Made by a program: the position numbers and the translations under genes. DNA of 40,197 nucleotides. It comes from Arcobacter sp. Its GTDB lineage: Bacteria; Acidobacteriota; Terriglobia; Bryobacterales; Bryobacteraceae. The notes under the pieces are model-generated. The model was given only the letters and a program-made list of their open reading frames with translations. It did no database searches and was not told where the DNA came from. Below, one piece after another: positions 10,330 through 21,387 of the stretch. Every line of letters begins with the position of its first letter. Position 1 is the first letter of the stretch. The stretch is from positions 1 to 40,197 of the forward strand of contig DYJN01000007.1 of NCBI GenBank assembly GCA_020723085.1, written 5' to 3'.

Positions 10330-11238
10330 ATGTTCAAAAGAGAAGGGATATGGACACGCTTCAACGGCGAAAAAGTCCGGCGGATGCTGCGGGAAAAATG
10401 CGACAGAGTTCTGTACGTCTGCCAGCCGCCGGGCAAGGTGCGGCTCTTCTCCGAGTCGGTCAAGGTTTTTGATCTGCTGTTGGAAGGAATGCCAAAACAA
10501 CTGCGGGGCAGAGCGTATGAGGAGATAAAGGATGAAGAATATGGCCCTGCCTCCGAGCTGTTGCCGGCGCTGCTCGATGGCGGCATATTGCAGGAAGATC
10601 TGACTTTTGGATTTAGTGTCCTCGGCCTTTCGTTGGCCAGCGCTTGGAGTCTCGGGGAGGTGCATACGCCCCTGCGCGGTTACCTGATCACCAACGATGG
10701 CGGCGACCTGAGCGCCGAAGATGCTCGCCTTCTTTTGGGCGCATGGGAGCCTGCGGCCAATTCCGTGGCCCGGCGGCGCTGCATTGCGCGGTGTTACGCA
10801 GACCATGCGGATTCGTTTGGATTTCCGCCCTTTGCCGGAAACTCTGTGGGTGGCGATCCGGAACTGCTCATGGAGTGCATTCAGGAGCTGGTGTCCGGGA
10901 GTCCTGGAATATTGGAGCGCATCTGCCGTCAGACTCTGCTGCAAAATCCTCTGACCTCCGAACGGCGGGACTATGTCCGTCAGCTGTCCGGCATTTCCGG
11001 CAGGCGGATCGACGAGCTCTTTGCCGAAGCTGGGTTCAAAAGCATCTTGGCAAAGGCCGGGAATGCGGACGCCTGTGAGATGCAAAACAGGGAAGATGAA
11101 GAAGTATTGGCGGAAGCGGAAGATTGCATCGACATCATCACTCCGGCGGCGGCTTTCGATCCCGAGACCGCCCAGTTTGTCCTCGCGAATTACTGCTATT
11201 TCCTGATGTTCGATCCCCACGGCATCGAACTCTCCTGA
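10330..11238 (+). CDS. Unrecognised 302-residue protein of lower G+C
   Basis: It starts MFKREGIWTRFNGEKVRRML and looks like a soluble, mostly helical, cytosolic protein with scattered cysteines (for example CDRVLYVCQPP) and an acidic C-terminal part (REDEEVLAEAEDCIDIITPA). No signal peptide, membrane segment or known motif was seen. The ATG at 10330 is chosen over the GTG at 10321 because AGGAGGT lies seven bases before it. Codon use contains many A- and T-ending codons, visibly unlike the surrounding genes, which suggests recent acquisition. It sits between the doubtful Pro/Arg-rich ORF and flagellin; a functional link to motility is not supported by sequence. Confidence 0.72.
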   Translation: MFKREGIWTRFNGEKVRRMLREKCDRVLYVCQPPGKVRLFSESVKVFDLLLEGMPKQLRGRAYEEIKDEEYGPASELLPALLDGGILQEDLTFGFSVLGLSLASAWSLGEVHTPLRGYLITNDGGDLSAEDARLLLGAWEPAANSVARRRCIARCYADHADSFGFPPFAGNSVGGDPELLMECIQELVSGSPGILERICRQTLLQNPLTSERRDYVRQLSGISGRRIDELFAEAGFKSILAKAGNADACEMQNREDEEVLAEAEDCIDIITPAAAFDPETAQFVLANYCYFLMFDPHGIELS

Positions 11239-11402
11239 ACGGCCCAGCCCCTCCTTGCGCCCGGCGGGCCGCTGCTTCGGGCCGTGAGTCCGCCGGAAGC
11301 CCGCCTGTGCTTCTGCCGGACATCTCTCCAGCCGGCGCCCGCGAACCCGGCCGCAAGCCCCCCTTGGCCTCCCGCATCCATGCCTCCTCCGGATTTTTTT
11401 CT

Positions 11403-11430
11403 TCAAGCCCCCGCGCGGGCGGACCGATGA
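11403..11430 (+). promoter_or_regulatory. Possible flagellar sigma28-like promoter before flagellin
   Basis: TCAA (11403-11406) followed after 16 bases by ACCGATGA (11423-11430) resembles TAAA-N15-GCCGATAA with 3/4 and 6/8 matches and one extra spacer base. It lies about 90 bases before the flagellin start. Confidence 0.3.
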
Positions 11431-11519
11431 GCGAGGGTGAAGCCGGAGCGCAGGATCGCAAGCGGTCCCGGCTGGAACGACTCCAGCCGAAGCCTCGGCC
11501 CACAAAGGAGAGAAGGATC

Positions 11520-13142
11520 GTGGCGTTTACGATTAACACCAACATCGCCTCCCTGCAGGCGCAGGAATACCTGCGCGTCACGCAGGAGTTCCAGACCAAG
11601 ACCATCAGCCGGGTCACTTCCGGCCTGCGCATCGTCAGTTCCGGCGATGACGCCGCCGGACTGGCCATTGCCAACGGGTTCCGCAGCGACCAGGCGGTGC
11701 TGTCGCAGGGCGTCCGCAATGCTAACGACGGCTTGGCGACGCTGCAGACCATCGACAGCGGCATCAACAACATCAGCAAGCTGCTCGACCGGGCGCGCAC
11801 GCTGGCCACCCAGTCGGCCTCGGGCACGTTCAACGGGGACCGCACGGTGCTCAACAGCGAGTTCCAGAGCGTGATCGAAGAGATCAACCGCCAGGCGCAG
11901 GCCATCGGCCTCAATCAGGGCGGCGATTTCGCCAAGGACCTGAGCGTCTTCATCGGCGGCGGGCGCGGCAGCACAAGCAGCGAGGTCATCACCAACGGCA
12001 GCGTCAGCGTCGACCTGCGCCAGTCCACCGTCGACGCCCGCAGCCTCGGCCTCTCCGGCTATTCGGCGGCCAGCGACTCCACCTACGACATGAGCGTCTA
12101 CAACAACGGCACCGCGGCCGACCTCGAAAGCGCCATCGGCGGCGCCACCTCGATGACGTTCAACCTCTCCGGCGTCGGCTTCGACGACCAGACCATCACC
12201 GTCAACCTGACGGGCGTGCAGGATCTCAATGGTCTCGTCGGGGCCATCAACGCCGGCATCGAGAGCGCCGCGGGCGGCACATCCGCGGGCGCCGTCGCGC
12301 TGCGCAACGCCAACATCACCGCGCAGATCAACGCCGACGGCAAAGGCTTCTCCCTCGTCTCCTCCTCGAGCGCCTTCGCCGTGGAGGCGGGCGCTGACAC
12401 GGCGGCGCAGCGCATGTTCGGACTCACTGCGGCAGCCAACGTGAAGGCCGCCGGCGGCCTGGAGGCGCGTTCGTTCTCCTTCACCGCCGTCTCGACCGGC
12501 AACTCGCAGATCGTCACCATCTCCGCCATCGGCGCCGATGGCTCCCTCCAGTCGGTCGACGTCACCCTCAACAACTCCAACGCCGCCACCGCGGAAGACG
12601 CCGCCGATGCCATCAACACCGCCCTGCTCGCCAGCAACAAGGACGGCCTCATGAAGATCGCGGCTGCCGAAGCGGGCAGCGGCGCCGACAGAGTCGTCTT
12701 CGCCAGCACCGGCGCCTTCAAGGTCGTGGTCCAGACCGCTACCGCCGCCGTCGGCCTCAACGGCGGCACCGCCGTCACCTCCGATTCCACCACCGACAGC
12801 TCGTCGGAAACCACGCTCGACTCCAGCGGCGGCGCCAACCTCTCCATCTCCACCCAGGAGACCGCCGAGCAGGCCGTCAACGCTCTGGCCCAGGCCGTCG
12901 AAGAACTCGGCCAGGCTCAGGCTGTCGTCGGCAAGGGCCAGAACCAGTTCAACTTCGCCGTCAGCCTCGCCGCTACCCAGCTCACCAACCTCGCCGCCAG
13001 CGAGTCCCGCATCCGCGATGCCGACCTCGCCTTCGAAGCGGCCAACCTCACCAAGGCCCAGATCCTCACCCAGGCCGGCGTCGCCGCCCTGGCTCAAGCC
13101 AACGCCGCCCCGCAGGCCGTCCTCAGCCTGCTCCGCGGCTAG
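11520..13142 (+). CDS. fliC: Flagellin
   Basis: A 540-residue flagellar filament subunit. The N-terminal D0/D1 region has AFTINTNIASLQAQEYLRV, SRVTSGLRIVSSGDDAAGLA and NDGLATLQTIDSGINNISKL. The C-terminal D1/D0 region has NLAASESRIRDADLAFEAAN, LTKAQILTQAGVAALAQAN and ends in AVLSLLRG. The middle ~280 residues are a Ser/Thr/Ala/Gly-rich variable region with two flagellin-IN-like segments (INLTGVQDLNG type near 225-245; VTLNNSNAATAEDAADAIN near 350). It would be exported by the flagellar type III system. The GTG at 11520 is chosen because it gives the canonical N-terminus and follows AAGGAGAGAAGG. No other flagellar gene is nearby, so it is a monocistronic orphan bounded by a strong hairpin. 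Confidence 0.95.
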   Translation: MAFTINTNIASLQAQEYLRVTQEFQTKTISRVTSGLRIVSSGDDAAGLAIANGFRSDQAVLSQGVRNANDGLATLQTIDSGINNISKLLDRARTLATQSASGTFNGDRTVLNSEFQSVIEEINRQAQAIGLNQGGDFAKDLSVFIGGGRGSTSSEVITNGSVSVDLRQSTVDARSLGLSGYSAASDSTYDMSVYNNGTAADLESAIGGATSMTFNLSGVGFDDQTITVNLTGVQDLNGLVGAINAGIESAAGGTSAGAVALRNANITAQINADGKGFSLVSSSSAFAVEAGADTAAQRMFGLTAAANVKAAGGLEARSFSFTAVSTGNSQIVTISAIGADGSLQSVDVTLNNSNAATAEDAADAINTALLASNKDGLMKIAAAEAGSGADRVVFASTGAFKVVVQTATAAVGLNGGTAVTSDSTTDSSSETTLDSSGGANLSISTQETAEQAVNALAQAVEELGQAQAVVGKGQNQFNFAVSLAATQLTNLAASESRIRDADLAFEAANLTKAQILTQAGVAALAQANAAPQAVLSLLRG

Positions 13143-14895: not shown

Positions 14896-15570
14896 GGGCG
14901 CAGGGGGCTCTCCCGAAGACCGTTGTCGAACGCCTTATCCCATGCGGTCTCCGGCGCAAGGACTCCCAAGGGGGCGTCGCCTCGCCGGTTCCGCATCCCC
15001 GCCGCGAATCAGTCAGCCTGACCGCTTCGAGTTCTCCTTGATCCCGCCGGCCTCTTCACGCCCCGCCCGCCGCCATTTGGATCCCTCCCGGTCCGCTACC
15101 CCTTATGCGCTGCAGCCGGAATTGAGCCCTTCGCCACGACGCTGAAACGGCGGAGCGGAAGGGCGCCTTCTTCACTTTCGGACGGTCGCGTCGATCAGTC
15201 GCCGCACGGCTGAGCGAGCCCGGCAGCGGGCAGGGGGAGGACGAAGACTCCACCGGTAGGGCGGCACTTGCCCTGCAAAGGCTTCGCCCGCCGGGAAACC
15301 CGTCAAGGCGCGTCATTTGTCCTCACGGGCAGCCACTGAGTTGGAAATGCCACCACAAGCCGGCCGGCGGATCTGGCAGGCGCCAAACCGTCCGTCGTGA
15401 CCGTCTTTCCTGGCTCAAAACGCGAAAGTCTCGTTTCAGGCCGCCTCTCTCGAAAGTGGGGGGCGAGGAATCGTCAGAAGGACCAGGCCGGCAGCGGTCT
15501 CCAGCGCCACCGCGCCCCCTGCCTCAAGTTCTCCCGCCCCTCCGCCGATCGCTCCTCAGAGGGATCCCCG
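14896..15570. other. 675-base stretch without a supported gene
   Basis: Both strands were read in all frames. The open frames are short and give low-complexity Pro/Arg-rich translations. There is no tRNA, rRNA, CRISPR or clear insertion-sequence end. The stretch around 15130-15340 looks somewhat more structured than its surroundings and could be a degenerate repeat or decayed gene, but I could not identify it. Confidence 0.5.
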
Positions 15571-15912
15571 ATGACGCACTCAGATTCCACCCTCCCTTCC
15601 ACTTCGGCAGAGTGCCACCTCGCCGGCCTCGAATTCCTGGAATCCGGCCGCGTCCTCGATGCCGTCCGCCTCCTCCGCCGCGCCCTCGATCTCGACCCCG
15701 CCCGGGCGGCTGCCTGGAACGACCTCGGCGTCATCCTGGAGGCTTTGGGCAATCCCCGCGACGCGGTCTACTGTTACCGGCGCGCCCTCCTCGCCCTCCC
15801 GCAAATGGAGGAGCCCCGCCGCAACCTCTTCGCCCTCGCTATGCAGGCCGCGGCCGCCCCTCCCCCGCCTCCCTCTGCGCGCCCCCGGGTCACCGTCGCC
15901 GTCGCGCGCTGA
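15571..15912 (+). CDS. Small TPR-repeat protein
   Basis: A 113-residue protein with about two tetratricopeptide repeats: LAGLEFLESGRVLDAVRLLR...DPARA and AWNDLGVILEALGNPRDAV.YCYRRAL. A Pro/Ala tail ([13 protein letters not shown]) follows. It has no signal peptide, so it is probably a cytosolic protein-protein adaptor. The ATG at 15571 has a GAGGGA ribosome site six bases upstream. It stands alone between two non-coding stretches, about 370 bases before the CarD gene; its partner is unknown. Confidence 0.72.
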   Translation: MTHSDSTLPSTSAECHLAGLEFLESGRVLDAVRLLRRALDLDPARAAAWNDLGVILEALGNPRDAVYCYRRALLALPQMEEPRRNLFALAMQAAAAPPPPPSARPRVTVAVAR

Positions 15913-16279: not shown

Positions 16280-16789
16280 ATGACCTTTCAAATCGGTGAG
16301 AAGGTTGTCTACCCGAACCATGGGGTGGGCACAGTCGAGAACATCAGTTCCCGTACCTTCGGCAATCAGACCGAAAAGTTTTATCTCCTCCGGCTCTCAA
16401 CGAACAACATGACCGTCATGGTCCCCTTCTCGCACGTCGAGCAGGTAGGGCTGCGCAAGGTCACGCGCAACGGCGATATCCACAAGGTGCTCACCTACCT
16501 CGCCAACGGGTGCGGCAGGATCTGCCAGGACTGGAAGGACCGTTTCAAGGAGAATTCCGCCAAAATGCAGAGCGGAAGTCTGCTCGAAATCGCCGAAGTC
16601 CTGAAGTGTCTCGTCGAGATTCAGGCTCACAAGCCTCTCTCGTTCCGTGAGAAAAAAATGCTGGAGCGCGCCCGCCTGATGCTGGTATCGGAGCTTGCCA
16701 CTTCCCGTGGCGTCTCCGAGCAGGACGCCGTGGAATTGCTCTCCCGGTCGCTCGCCAAGGCGAGCCTGCAATTCCCCGAGCCGCTCTGA
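16280..16789 (+). CDS. CarD/CdnL-family transcription regulator
   Basis: A 169-residue protein. The N-terminal ~65 residues are the Tudor-like RNA-polymerase-interacting domain (FQIGEKVVYPNHGVGTVENI, then KFYLLRLSTNNMTVMVPFSH, VGLRKV), and the remaining ~100 are the helical DNA-binding domain (DWKDRFKENSAKMQSGSL, LSFREKKMLERARLMLVSEL). CarD/CdnL proteins bind the beta subunit of RNA polymerase and stabilise open complexes, notably at rRNA and growth promoters. Length and layout are standard for the family. The ribosome site AGCGAGGT precedes the ATG by about seven bases. It is probably monocistronic with its own promoter. Confidence 0.93.
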   Translation: MTFQIGEKVVYPNHGVGTVENISSRTFGNQTEKFYLLRLSTNNMTVMVPFSHVEQVGLRKVTRNGDIHKVLTYLANGCGRICQDWKDRFKENSAKMQSGSLLEIAEVLKCLVEIQAHKPLSFREKKMLERARLMLVSELATSRGVSEQDAVELLSRSLAKASLQFPEPL

Positions 16790-17086: not shown

Positions 17087-19771
17087 ATGCGGTGTCTATA
17101 CTGCGGGAACAAACTGTCGCTCCTGCGCCGAATCGCGGACGGAATGTTCTGTTCCGAGGCACACCGTGAAGCCCATCAGCGGCTGCAGGACGAACTGGCG
17201 CTCACCCGCCTCGCCGACACCCGCTCCAGCCGCACAGCTCATCAGCCCGCCGCGCAGAAGCGGGCCGACGTGCGCGCGTCCGGCCAGCCTCCCCATGCCC
17301 CGCTGCTTCCACAGGCAGCCGTCTGGATTGACTGCCGCAGAGTCGTTGCGCCGCCCATCCAGCCGCCGGTCTTTTCTCCTGTCCACTTCCTTCCCGAGTC
17401 CAGCCTCCGCACCATCGCCCGGGGAATGCCTGCGCCGTCCGCCGCATCCTGGCAGACGGCTGTCGCGCCCGAAGCTGACACCGCCGCGCCGCTCCAACTC
17501 CTACCGGTTGATCCTCTGCCGCCGGATTTCGTCCTTCCGCTGGAGAGCTGCCGGCCCTTGGCGGATCCGGTGGCGCCGCCTCAGCCTTTGATCCCTCTGG
17601 CCGCCGGCTTCTGCCGTCCCGCTGGCCTTCCTGCCCTCGAATCACGTGCACTCCATCGCCGTAAGCTCGTCATCATCGTGCCCAAGTCCGGCTTGGTTCT
17701 CCAGTCAGGCCGCTCCGCTGCAACGCCCGCTGTTGTTCGGAGTCCGGAGCCAAAACCGGCCCGCAGTCCGGAAGCTGGCCTTCTCCGGATCGTGCCCTCC
17801 CGCCTGACTTCGGACCCCGGCCGGACCTTGCCGGCTCCGCCCCTGTCTCTGGATCCTCCAGAATGGCTGAAGCCGCCTGTACCAGCGGAGGTCGAGGTTC
17901 CGGTTCGTCTTGAGCAGCCATCTGAGCCGCCCATCCGGCTCTTCCTGCTCCCCTTGGCCCCGCCGCCGCCCGTGCCCGCCGCCAGCCGGGCGCCTGCCGG
18001 AATCGTCAGTCTGTACTCCTGTGACCGCCAGGCGGCTTTGCCATCCGGTTCGCGCGCGTCTGCGATCCATGCTCCTTCCCCGCGCCTCCAGGCGCAGGTC
18101 ACAGTCGGATCCCCCGCGCTTCCGCCGGTTCCCGCGGCCCTGCCCGTGGCGGTTTCAACCGGCGGGCCTCTCGACTCGCCTGAACTGGAGTTGCCCCGGC
18201 TATGCCGGACAGACGCCACCCGCCGGGCATCGTGGCCCGAGTTCGCGGCCTTGGCGGCCGTGGACACGCCGCCAGCTCGGTGGTCAGTGGCGCCGTGCGA
18301 GGTTTCCCCGCTGCCGGTGCACGTCTCCCCGCCGGACGCTCCCGCTCCGGCCGTGTCCCGGGCGCTCCCGCTCCGGCAGCTCCGCCCTGCCCGCCGGATG
18401 CTCCCTGTCGGACTGCCCGATCCCGCCGCGCTCCCGCTGCCGCATTCGGCGCCCCCTCTCAAGCCCGGATGGGCCGATCCGCCTGCTGCGCCGCCCCCGC
18501 TCGCTCTCGACTTGCAGCCGCCCGAGCCCCTTTGTCCTGCGCCTGATCCATCGGATCACGCCCCTGACCCGGAACTCCACGCCCTCGGCCGCGCCGTCGC
18601 ATTCGGCCATGCCGGCGCCGGCCCGGATCTCGCCGCTGTCCAGCCGGAGCCCCCGGCGCCGGCGCAGGATCAGGAACTCACACCGGTGTTCCAGGCCGGC
18701 GCCGGATCCCAGCCCGCCTTCGAGCCTCCCCCCGACTTGTGTGGCCGGCTGCCGATGATGCCCGCCCGCCCGGTGGATTCCGCCGGCAAGTCCAGCCGCA
18801 CCTGCTCCGGCTCCGTCCTCTCCTGCTGGGCCGCTCTCGATGATCTCCGCCCGGCCCAGCCATTCCTGCGCCTTGAACTGGACCACGCCGACGGCTCAGG
18901 CCCCAGGCGCCACCCCGGTCCGAAAACCTTCAGAAACAAGTTCTCCAAACTCCGCAGGAACAGGCGCTTTTGGCTTCACGCTCCTTCCGATCTCAAATGG
19001 ATCGCCGTCGCCCTGCCCCTGCTCCTTGTGGTCGTGGTCTACAGTTTCTATGGCAAGAAGCCGAACAATCCGGCAGGGGATTCCGCCATGGCCTCCACTG
19101 CCACAGCGCCTGCCGCCAGCAATTCCGGGCAGCCCTGGATCAAGGCCAACGCCATTCAGCGCTTCATCATGCGCCGGGCCGGCGTGCGCCTGTTCGATGA
19201 TTTCCGCGGCGGTCTTGGCGCCTGGCAGGGCAAGGAAGGCTGGTCCAAAACCTGGCGCTATGGCGACGCCACCTTCGTCCAGCCCGGCGAGCTCGCCCTG
19301 CTCTCTTCCAGCCTTGGACTCAGCGATTACACGCTCACCTTCCTCGGCCAGATCGAGCGCCGCAGCTTGAATTGGGTCTTCCGCGCCAAAGATCTCGGCA
19401 ACTATTACTCCATGCGTATCGCCGTCACCCGGGCCGGTCCGCTCCCGGAGGCCGTCCTCGTGCGCACCGTCGTGCTCAACGGCAGGGAGCGCGAGGTCAA
19501 AACCCTGCCCATCCCCTTCCCAGTCCAGGCCGATACCCTCTATCTCGTCCGGATGGAAGTGCACGGCCGCGATTTCACGACTTACATCCAGAACCAGATC
19601 GTCGATCATTTCACTGACAGCCGCCTCAACTCCGGTGGCGTCGGCTTTTATAGCCCCCGGGGAGACCGGGCGCTGTTGCGTTGGGTGGAAGTCTCCCACC
19701 AGTACGACTATCTGGGCAGGCTCTGCGCGCTGTTGTCCCCGTATGGCGTGCAGGGGCTGCCCGCCGATTAG
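17087..19771 (+). CDS. Zn-ribbon / Pro-rich / single-TM / LamG-like membrane protein
   Basis: An 894-residue protein with four regions. Residues 1-30 form a treble-clef or ribbon motif C3-x2-C6-x15-C22-x3-H26 (MRCLYCGNK, MFCSEAHREAH). Residues about 50-620 are a very long Pro-rich, probably disordered region. A Lys/Arg-rich stretch precedes a transmembrane helix at about 638-658 (WIAVALPLLLVVVVYSFYG). Residues about 700-890 are a concanavalin/LamG-like beta domain (RLFDDFRGGLGAWQG, NWVFRAKDLGNYYSMRI, VDHFTDSRLNSGGVGFY). By the positive-inside rule the Zn-ribbon and Pro-rich parts are cytoplasmic and the LamG-like part is outside. The ATG at 17087 is chosen because upstream codons give unlike sequence. 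A TPR protein follows after 20 bases and is probably co-transcribed. The function is unknown. Confidence 0.85.
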   Translation: MRCLYCGNKLSLLRRIADGMFCSEAHREAHQRLQDELALTRLADTRSSRTAHQPAAQKRADVRASGQPPHAPLLPQAAVWIDCRRVVAPPIQPPVFSPVHFLPESSLRTIARGMPAPSAASWQTAVAPEADTAAPLQLLPVDPLPPDFVLPLESCRPLADPVAPPQPLIPLAAGFCRPAGLPALESRALHRRKLVIIVPKSGLVLQSGRSAATPAVVRSPEPKPARSPEAGLLRIVPSRLTSDPGRTLPAPPLSLDPPEWLKPPVPAEVEVPVRLEQPSEPPIRLFLLPLAPPPPVPAASRAPAGIVSLYSCDRQAALPSGSRASAIHAPSPRLQAQVTVGSPALPPVPAALPVAVSTGGPLDSPELELPRLCRTDATRRASWPEFAALAAVDTPPARWSVAPCEVSPLPVHVSPPDAPAPAVSRALPLRQLRPARRMLPVGLPDPAALPLPHSAPPLKPGWADPPAAPPPLALDLQPPEPLCPAPDPSDHAPDPELHALGRAVAFGHAGAGPDLAAVQPEPPAPAQDQELTPVFQAGAGSQPAFEPPPDLCGRLPMMPARPVDSAGKSSRTCSGSVLSCWAALDDLRPAQPFLRLELDHADGSGPRRHPGPKTFRNKFSKLRRNRRFWLHAPSDLKWIAVALPLLLVVVVYSFYGKKPNNPAGDSAMASTATAPAASNSGQPWIKANAIQRFIMRRAGVRLFDDFRGGLGAWQGKEGWSKTWRYGDATFVQPGELALLSSSLGLSDYTLTFLGQIERRSLNWVFRAKDLGNYYSMRIAVTRAGPLPEAVLVRTVVLNGREREVKTLPIPFPVQADTLYLVRMEVHGRDFTTYIQNQIVDHFTDSRLNSGGVGFYSPRGDRALLRWVEVSHQYDYLGRLCALLSPYGVQGLPAD

Positions 19772-19791
19772 CGCCAACGACGAGGTGATTT

Positions 19792-21387
19792 ATGCGAGAA
19801 GACAACCGCCTGTTGGAGGAACTCAAGCCTGAAAAGGGCACCGCTCTGGCCCGCGCGGTCGCCTTGCATCTCGAAGGCAAGGGCCGCGAGGCCCTCCAGG
19901 AACTGGACCGCGCCCTCGAGTCCGGCGACCCGCCCCGCGAGGTCTATGCCGCCCGCGGCCATATCCAGTTCGAACTGGAACTCTACGACGAGGCCGTCAA
20001 GAGCTACGAGTCCCTCACCACCATCGACCCCAACGCCCAGTCGGCTTTCTTCAACCTCGCCGTCTGCCAGGAAAAGCTCGGCCGCTGGGCCGAAGCCGCC
20101 GCCAACTTCGAGCGCGTCCTCCAGCACGACCCTGCGCGCCATGACGCCCGCCTTGGCCTCGGCATCTCGCTGCTCCACCTCAAAAAGGCCGAGCACGCCC
20201 TCGAAGCCTTCAACCAGTGCCTCAAAGCCGAGCCTGCCAATGAAACCGCCATCTTCGGCAAGGCCGTCGCCCTCGAGCTGCTCAGCCGTTTCGACGATGC
20301 CCTCAGCCTCTACCGCCAGATCCTCGCCTCCAACCCCAACGCCGAAGAGCCCATGTCAAACATGATCCACATCGGCATGCGCCGCGGCGACCAGGCCCTC
20401 GTCTCCGAGATCAGCGAACGCCTCCTCGCCCTCCGTCCCTTCTCCCAGACCGCCTTCGAAGGCCTCGCCTGGTGCGCCTTCCACCGCGAAGATTACGAAG
20501 CCGCCTCGCGCTATTGCGCCAAGCTCGTCGAACTCACTCCGGAGCATTTCGAGCGCCGTTACAACCTCGGCGTTGCTCTCCAGAAACTCGAGCGCTTCGA
20601 GCAGGCTGAAAAGTCCTACGAAGAAGCTGCCCGCCTCCGCTCCGACCACGTCCAGACCTGGGCCAGTCTCGGCATGGTCCGCCAGTTGCTCGGCAACGCG
20701 CGCGGCGCCCGCGAGGCCTACGAAACCTCGCTCCGCCTCAATCCCGAGCAGCCCGAAGTCACCGCCAACCTCGCCGGTCTGCTCGAAGCCCAGGGCCAGA
20801 CCGAAGAGGCCGAATCCCTGTACGCGCGCCTCTCCGCCAGGCACCCCGAGCTCGCCGACGCCCACTTCCGCCTCGGCTACATCCGCCTCTGCCGCGGCGA
20901 CGCTCTCGGCGCCATCGAAGCCTTCGAACAATGTGTCCACGCCAACCCCGAGTGGGTTGAGGCCCTGATCAACCTCGGCCTTGCCTATAAGCAGACCGGC
21001 GAGTCCGACCGCGCTCTCGAGCATCTCCAGCGGGCGCTCGCCCTCAAGCCCGACTCCATCGAAGCTCTTCGCGCCTTGGCCGCCCTCGCCGTCGAGCAGG
21101 GCGACGACCCGCGCGCCTTGGAATTGCAGGGCAAGCTCATCGACCTCGGCGAACGTTCCCCGGAGCTGTTCTACAACACCGGCCTCCTCCTCCACCGCCG
21201 CGGCCAGCTCGATGACGCCGTCGCCCTCTACCGCGAGGCCATCGTCCTGCGCCCCCAGTTCCCGGAAGCTCTCCTCAACCTCGGCCACGCCCTCAAGGCT
21301 CAGGGCCGCACCGAAGAGGCCAAGAGCTACTGGCGCCAGGCCCTGGAAATCAAGCCCGAACTCGCCGAGGGCTACTTCGGCGACTGA
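19792..21387 (+). CDS. Large TPR-repeat protein
   Basis: A 531-residue protein made of about 12-14 tandem tetratricopeptide repeats across its whole length, for example AFFNLAVCQEKLGRWAEAAANFERVLQHDP and ALINLGLAYKQTGESDRALEHLQRALALKP. No signal peptide or membrane segment was seen, so it is probably a cytosolic scaffold. GAGGTGAT precedes the ATG. It lies 20 bases after the Zn-ribbon/LamG protein, whose long cytoplasmic Pro-rich region would be a natural ligand for TPR grooves (inference). It is convergent with cinA, 41 bases away, with no obvious hairpin between them. Confidence 0.9.
   Translation: MREDNRLLEELKPEKGTALARAVALHLEGKGREALQELDRALESGDPPREVYAARGHIQFELELYDEAVKSYESLTTIDPNAQSAFFNLAVCQEKLGRWAEAAANFERVLQHDPARHDARLGLGISLLHLKKAEHALEAFNQCLKAEPANETAIFGKAVALELLSRFDDALSLYRQILASNPNAEEPMSNMIHIGMRRGDQALVSEISERLLALRPFSQTAFEGLAWCAFHREDYEAASRYCAKLVELTPEHFERRYNLGVALQKLERFEQAEKSYEEAARLRSDHVQTWASLGMVRQLLGNARGAREAYETSLRLNPEQPEVTANLAGLLEAQGQTEEAESLYARLSARHPELADAHFRLGYIRLCRGDALGAIEAFEQCVHANPEWVEALINLGLAYKQTGESDRALEHLQRALALKPDSIEALRALAALAVEQGDDPRALELQGKLIDLGERSPELFYNTGLLLHRRGQLDDAVALYREAIVLRPQFPEALLNLGHALKAQGRTEEAKSYWRQALEIKPELAEGYFGD

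Follow-up and report, generated by a model that had tools for sequence, protein, structure and literature searches.

AgmX/GltJ of Myxococcus, a membrane protein that forms part of an envelope machine, carries a zinc finger on its cytoplasmic side. Its N-terminal zinc finger is mentioned in the available part of a report (PMC5182065) that, with a second one, also covers ZitP of Caulobacter, whose finger binds PopZ inside the cell while its DUF3426 domain recruits CpaM outside (PMC5182065, PMC5182063, both in their available parts). Here we describe a two-gene module in a stretch of 40,197 nucleotides (the window; positions 1 to 40,197 of the forward strand of contig DYJN01000007.1, assembly GCA_020723085.1, named Arcobacter sp. 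and placed by GTDB in the Bryobacteraceae, order Bryobacterales, of the Acidobacteriota), in which a protein with a putative zinc finger, a long disordered tail, a membrane helix and an outer domain (P0001) is encoded directly ahead of a protein built throughout from tetratricopeptide repeats (TPRs; P0002). A reading of this DNA made from its letters alone (the sequence-only reading) had not known the combination by name; we found none either, nor any description of the pair in the literature searches made. On balance we favour the view that the two gene products form a dedicated scaffold, in which the TPR superhelix would hold the Pro/Ala-rich tail by means of an asparagine ladder. The two genes and the parts of P0001 are as follows.

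17087..19771, + strand: gene of the zinc finger-tail-membrane helix-CBM66-like protein (P0001), 894 amino acids, ATG at 17087, stop codon 19769-19771 included
17087..17239, + strand: head, amino acids 1-51, predicted C2CH treble-clef-like zinc finger plus helix (invariant ligands; helix 24-51 in the model)
17240..18946, + strand: disordered Pro/Ala/Leu-rich tail, amino acids 52-620, 20.6% Pro (from pLDDT, secondary structure, composition and dN/dS)
18878..18907, + strand: conserved element LDHADGSGPR, amino acids 598-607 (identical in five genus members)
18965..19006, + strand: juxtamembrane element RFWLHAPSDLKWIA, amino acids 627-640 (pattern W..AP.D)
18986..19045, + strand: predicted membrane helix, amino acids 634-653 (helix in the AlphaFold2 model; hydropathy 2.23)
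19133..19735, + strand: CBM66-like jelly-roll domain with flanking helices, amino acids 683-883 (structure model and fold comparison)
19724..19726, + strand: codon of Cys880, a conserved single cysteine predicted to be exported (Cys motif in the helix after the sandwich)
19792..21387, + strand: gene of the all-TPR partner (P0002), 531 amino acids, 15 repeats, no signal peptide seen

The sequence-only reading had an 894-residue protein with about 570 residues of Pro-rich disorder and one transmembrane helix, followed after 20 bases by a 531-residue all-TPR protein. All of this holds, the P0001 stop and the P0002 ATG at 19792 being 20 bases apart, residues 52-620 being modelled as disordered and the helix being present in the model. 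As in ZitP, an N-terminal cytoplasmic zinc finger, a linker, one membrane helix and a periplasmic domain would follow one another, and in ZitP the finger and the outer domain act separately; by analogy, the pair may work like ZitP. The two proteins differ, however, in the finger (CXXC-X19-CXXC, PF13719, in ZitP against C-x2-C-x15-C-x3-H here), the linker (about 70 residues against about 570) and the outer domain (DUF3426 against a CBM66-like one). At E 0.1 the 34 finger members match 16 families, of which zinc_ribbon_5 (PF13719) is not one, and DUF3426 matches neither P0001 nor 46 outer-domain members. Identity with ZitP was rejected because finger and outer domain belong to other families. 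With AgmX/GltJ, P0001 would likewise share a cytoplasmic zinc finger on a membrane protein. In their available parts, the two ZitP reports mention no TPR partner gene (PMC5182065, PMC5182063).

The TPR gene accompanies the finger-headed long tail

The TPR gene tracks the finger-headed long tail, the membrane anchor and outer domain being optional. In 116 loci, 102 unique rows gave 75 complete genes with finger, outer domain and a long linker (at least 100 amino acids) and nine with a short one (50-81 amino acids), 18 other rows having been dropped as truncated or missing one part. A TPR gene lies at most 400 bp downstream of 73 of the 75 long-linker genes and beside none of the nine short-linker ones; the two exceptions are L040, first of a tandem pair, and L217, 70 bp from a contig end. 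The pair proposed from the window alone is thus real, its genes being adjacent in relatives almost without exception and not rarely. The suspicion of a fusion artefact was borne out in part, the parts lying in separate genes in family f3.

A wider set of 118 unique finger genes, from which outer-domain genes without a finger are excluded, contains 99 with an adjoining TPR gene and 19 without. Long tails (138-1879 amino acids) have the TPR gene adjacent in 99 of 101 evaluable cases, the two others (L040 and L045) each opening a tandem array whose last gene is a TPR gene, while none of the 13 genes with short tails (12-122 amino acids) has one; the remaining four TPR-less genes reach contig ends. 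Adjacency at this frequency (73/75; 99/101) rules out chance neighbours. The TPR gene also accompanies finger-tail proteins that lack the outer domain (21 rows of the 118-gene set) and six that have an outer domain and no predicted helix (L266-L271), a call made from the hydropathy window only, with L267 and L268 at 1.34-1.35 against a line of 1.4. The converse class, a helix without the outer domain (L255, L256), is weak, consisting of a single window of 1.63-1.69 in mid-protein. Because the TPR gene is kept in the absence of outer domain or helix, and is missing beside most outer-domain genes without a finger (L315 excepted), it is the finger-headed tail that it follows.

A tree of 95 TPR proteins, those of the 99 pairs with TPR frames of at least 400 amino acids, requires at least 9 changes among four partner types against a mean of 24.5 after shuffling, as low a number being reached in 0 of 200 shuffles; the tree was made by a quick method and has some long branches, and its hand labels count L049, L165 and L203 as 'helix' despite windows of 0.93-1.30 and L309 as 'tail-only' despite 1.47. 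Inspection of the neighbours of the short finger form gave no clear lead. Two very short proteins with a finger of the same type, one of 168 amino acids with a single hydrophobic segment (L311, 1375-1881) and one of 81 (L312, 3259-3504), were seen without a TPR neighbour.

Finger head and disordered tail

The head pattern is made up of Cys3, Cys6, Cys22 and His26, the presumptive zinc ligands, which are invariant in 34 of 34 aligned members. Its Pfam matches are weak (the treble clef DUF2116 in 6 of 34 members, best E 0.009) and its sole match among PDB sequences is TniQ (E 0.012 over 23 residues). An AlphaFold2 model of the whole 894-residue protein, calculated with 25 aligned sequences, is mostly confident for residues 1-51. 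Of the zinc ribbon seen by the sequence-only reading the finger head stands and the ribbon label gives way to a C2CH treble-clef-like one. In the same model residues 52-620 are almost wholly below pLDDT 50 and without secondary structure. Across members the tail averages 16.1% Ala, 14.6% Pro, 9.5% Leu and 6.8% Val. Beside the membrane helix, four-residue patterns related to LDHADGSGPR occur in 11-12 of 64 non-redundant linkers (about 0.2 expected) and the pattern W..AP.D in 20 of the 64 (0.3 expected).

In five genus pairs, with synonymous sites partly saturated (dS 0.4-2.0), dN/dS is 0.36-0.59 for the tail (amino acids 47-590), 0.08-0.23 for the finger head, 0.10-0.12 for the outer domain and 0.05-0.10 for the TPR protein. 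That the tail is genuinely coding, under weak constraint, follows from its dN/dS and from the open frames in relatives, which rule out an overlapping-frame or GC artefact.

The TPR partner and the proposed scaffold

P0002 consists of TPRs over its whole length in a Pfam scan (best 25 of 46 families), with 15 repeats as read, and it is conserved along its full length. Conservation is higher at the groove positions of the family (2.75 bits) than at the remaining non-core positions (2.24 bits), none of 20,000 permutations being as high, the register of the N-terminal repeats being unsure in this analysis. In eight of the 15 repeats, between 28 and 31 of the 31 sequences have asparagine at repeat position 6; in P0002 itself these asparagines are residues 88, 190, 258, 326, 394, 462 and 496. 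A long TPR superhelix with inward asparagines at a fixed repeat position is also seen in O-GlcNAc transferase (OGT; PDB 1w3b), which P0002 matches at E 1.2e-41, though not specifically; P0002 differs in having no glycosyltransferase domain, its 531 amino acids being filled by TPR matches. In the available part of the source, OGT is described as reading disordered peptides by their backbone, which its asparagines contact, with Ala, Val and Pro favoured (PMC10164912).

In the proposed scaffold P0001 would supply a cytoplasmic C2CH finger for docking and the disordered tail of about 570 residues, here followed by a membrane helix and, outside the membrane, a CBM66-like domain, and the all-TPR superhelix of P0002 would take the tail into its groove, largely through backbone contacts made by the asparagine ladder. 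A conserved TPR protein could keep a drifting partner in this way: the sequence of the tail would be free to change, with the composition of the tail and the groove of the TPR protein both retained. Anchor and outer domain would be optional additions that direct the complex to the envelope and hold it there, perhaps dimerized by a disulfide bond via Cys880. We are more hesitant about a bolder version, which can be offered only tentatively, in which the pair is a bacterial clamp that reads composition instead of sequence and has been redeployed repeatedly between cytoplasm and membrane by gain or loss of the helix and a Cys-dimerizing CBM66-like domain. On this bolder version the clamp would organize multivalent assemblies in the bacteria of a single order, and the short-tail paralogues would serve as built-in controls. 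How disordered proteins retain partners while drifting almost freely in sequence is a general open question, and long tails with a TPR gene set against short ones without provide a natural comparison of how conserved repeat proteins keep such partners.

P0002 also scores above several NCBIfam cut-offs, namely those of MamA (NF040959; 207.7 against 200 bits) and LcrH/SycD (TIGR02552; 120.9 against 104.8 bits, the best stretch being 52-151 only). MamA is likewise all-TPR, but the match covers repeats 371-521 only. Passing these two cut-offs shows only the looseness of such TPR models, and automatic names for this family, for example 'magnetosome protein MamA', would mislead. Among the ten other window proteins scanned no magnetosome gene and no type III secretion gene was named, the genome not having been searched for mam genes or for type III secretion. 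The cut-offs of SctY (73 against 70) and TPR_END_plus (42.8 against 32) are passed as well. A defence system was considered and rejected, PADLOC giving generic TPR models only for P0002 (E 1.7e-5 to 1.5e-8) and nothing for P0001.

The LcrH/SycD score bears on another possibility, that P0002 is a dedicated chaperone and not part of a lasting scaffold: like the small TPR chaperones of type III translocators, it would only maintain the long Pro-rich tail in solution or deliver it to the membrane. Gene order and translational overlap (a gap of -4 in 19 of 75 long-linker genes) suit a chaperone and its client, as does the fact that short-tail paralogues need no TPR gene. The score does not discriminate, however, because the MamA cut-off is passed too; P0002 has four times the length of LcrH-type chaperones, whose model covers 136 residues, and a complete 15-repeat superhelix with a conserved groove would exceed the needs of a holder of one segment. 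We consider a chaperone unlikely.

Membrane helix and outer domain

Of 72 long members, 46 have more lysine and arginine ahead of the helix than behind it and 10 have fewer, and because of this bias we infer that head and tail are cytoplasmic and the sandwich domain outside. A finger inside, one helix and a domain outside are thus predicted from hydropathy, the model and charge bias together.

The whole-protein model has confident sandwich strands at 701-871, and the outer domain modelled alone reaches a mean pLDDT of 84.6. Its nearest solved fold is CBM66 of Bacillus subtilis levanase (PDB 4azz, 4b1l, 4b1m; Z 18.9, rmsd 2.2-2.5 Å over 149-153 residues with 20-21% identity), with galactocerebrosidase close behind at Z of about 17.6; the CBM66 sequence profile matches at E 0.15-0.19 only, over 56 residues. 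CBM66 is attached to an enzyme in levanase, whereas here the domain is membrane-anchored and not on an enzyme. The LamG-like domain that the sequence-only reading proposed for structure prediction is a confident sandwich of the same broad jelly-roll class as LamG, but the Pfam LamG/laminin G families have no match in P0001 and match 0 of 46 members at E 0.1. The 3-keto-disaccharide hydrolase family PF06439 likewise matches neither P0001 nor the 46 members at E 0.1; two f3 relatives match it at E 1.4e-4 and 2.2e-3, both below the cut-off, which suggests a distant kinship.

The Cys880 motif is present in 66 of 80 long members and missing from all 11 short ones and from all six without a predicted membrane helix, and this residue is the sole cysteine C-terminal of the helix in 50 of 69 long helix-bearing members. 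An exported disulfide-linked dimer via Cys880 is a fair guess.

The outer domain, CBM66-like and conserved in its dN/dS, together with the Lys/Arg placement that puts the finger inside and the domain outside, could also belong to a transmembrane sensor, in which a glycan of the envelope or from outside the cell would be bound by the domain and a signal relayed through the tail to the TPR protein. The sequence-only reading had likewise suggested that the pair could link an outside ligand to a TPR assembly. As the essence of the pair this is not supported, as TPR genes are kept by tails without outer domain and/or predicted helix and short finger-helix-outer domain proteins have no TPR gene; such a link can fit the membrane-anchored variant only. 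A disordered tail of 570 residues would also be poor at conducting a conformational change, and a sensor appears quite improbable.

Exceptions and alternative arrangements

A number of observations weigh against the scaffold as the explanation of the pair. For its coupling to the finger-headed tail, most loci had been picked by a match to the outer domain or the TPR protein, so that 99 of 101 is no blind sample; a finger-model search of whole genomes (G000, G001, G002), which avoids selection by partner, found nine long genes all with a TPR gene and three short ones all without, a small count. L315 (G030:C16, 5119-8662) combines tail, outer domain and TPR gene without a finger, which shows that the finger can be dispensable. 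In four f3 genes an N-terminal region of about 190-250 amino acids that looks disordered precedes a helix and an outer domain, the finger and a neighbouring TPR gene both being missing, so that a tail does not suffice by itself; the three f3 genomes concerned have the finger-tail and TPR pair elsewhere. The correlation between TPR and outer-domain distances (r 0.82, 75 pairs) is expected from shared ancestry. For the mode of binding, besides the unsure register noted above, a search of the tail for a TPR-binding motif found none beyond the two elements beside the membrane helix, P0002 itself has Ser at position 6 in one of the eight Asn repeats, and engineered consensus TPR proteins match it better than OGT does. 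Asparagine at position 6 is part of the general TPR consensus and common in TPR proteins. At L315, two TPR genes stand in tandem behind the fingerless outer-domain gene.

A further exception, L272 (G504:C6, 3587-6796), is a protein of 1069 amino acids in which a membrane helix and a CBM66-like outer domain follow an ATPase head that resembles the XrtA/PEP-CTERM-associated AAA ATPase (TIGR03015; E 2.5e-58, below the cut-off); it has no finger, and the 2.7 kb downstream contain no TPR gene. Because it carries the same outer domain and helix on another head, the outer half looks like an exchangeable module, as would suit a ZitP-like envelope tether in which finger and TPR protein recruit cytoplasmic clients, and the outer domain recruits or grips a part of the envelope, so as to mark a site in the cell. 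ZitP shares the order finger-helix-periplasmic domain, and its halves recruit separately, according to the available parts of the reports (PMC5182065, PMC5182063). Its finger and outer domain differ from those found here, however, purely cytoplasmic versions exist by prediction, and a tether would overlap the scaffold and differ from it mainly in purpose; we judge it very improbable.

Distribution

Within the Acidobacteriota, the pair forms a conserved module of a single order. In 257 genomes of the order the outer domain (E 1e-10) occurs in 166 and the TPR protein (E 1e-60) in 169, with both in 164 and neither in 86; Fisher's test on this co-occurrence gives 2e-59, which overstates the case because the genomes are related. 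The two genomes with the outer domain and without the TPR protein (G401, G436) have only the short form where read, and five have the TPR protein without the outer domain (G356, G429, G430, G031, G551). Seventeen genomes were searched for the finger, and the seven among them that lack outer domain and TPR protein also lack it. At E 1e-70 the TPR protein is found in 29 of 200 genomes of a class sample, all of the window's family, and in 3 of 297 of a phylum sample; the outer domain at E 1e-6 is found in 12 of the 297, three matches being strong (its own genome and two of its family) and nine weak (E 5e-13 to 9e-7). At these thresholds the module was not found outside the order in the phylum and class samples.

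Genomes that were read carry one to four finger-tail/TPR pairs, the window's genome (G000) having three (C41, C69, C100) and one short form (C106); the system is thus a multi-copy one specific to a widespread, little-studied order. The relatives with names (n=56) are mostly labelled Bryobacteraceae, Bryobacterales, Solibacter or Acidobacteria. L169, L187 and L211 are labelled Armatimonadetes (UBA8783), Acetobacteraceae (SJ470) and Acidimicrobiia, yet carry genes of this order, the outer domain of L169 being 93% identical to that of the window, and these bins look mislabelled.

Neighbouring genes

Upstream of the pair lies one gene that was considered as a possible third part of the module.

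16280..16789, + strand: CarD-family gene (Pfam CarD_C and CarD_TRCF_RID above cut-off), not an obligatory part

Its dN/dS is 0.055-0.083 in the five genus pairs. A CarD gene is found within 450 bp upstream of 22 of the 75 long-linker genes, at 1-1.6 kb for 13 and farther away for one; none was seen within at least 1.8 kb for 32, and seven have too little upstream sequence; the paralogous pairs in L253, L254 and L305-L310 were read with no further search for CarD. Since 32 of the 68 long-linker loci that have either a CarD match or sufficient upstream sequence lack the gene, CarD was rejected as a third part and is treated as synteny. A gene of about 380 amino acids, enolase-superfamily-like by eye, lies between CarD and the finger gene in L171 (2119-3261), L173 (2824-3966), L043 (8505-9644) and L048 (10484-11623), a spacing of CarD like that of the 13 loci above.

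Upstream of CarD in the window, at 15397-15912, is a small TPR frame with a Pro-rich end and weak matches only to PilW/Tgl. Farther upstream, the N- and C-terminal parts of a frame at 11124-13142 are of flagellin type (every NCBIfam match is below cut-off, the best at E 8e-45); read from its first start codon, the frame has about 134 additional residues ahead of them.

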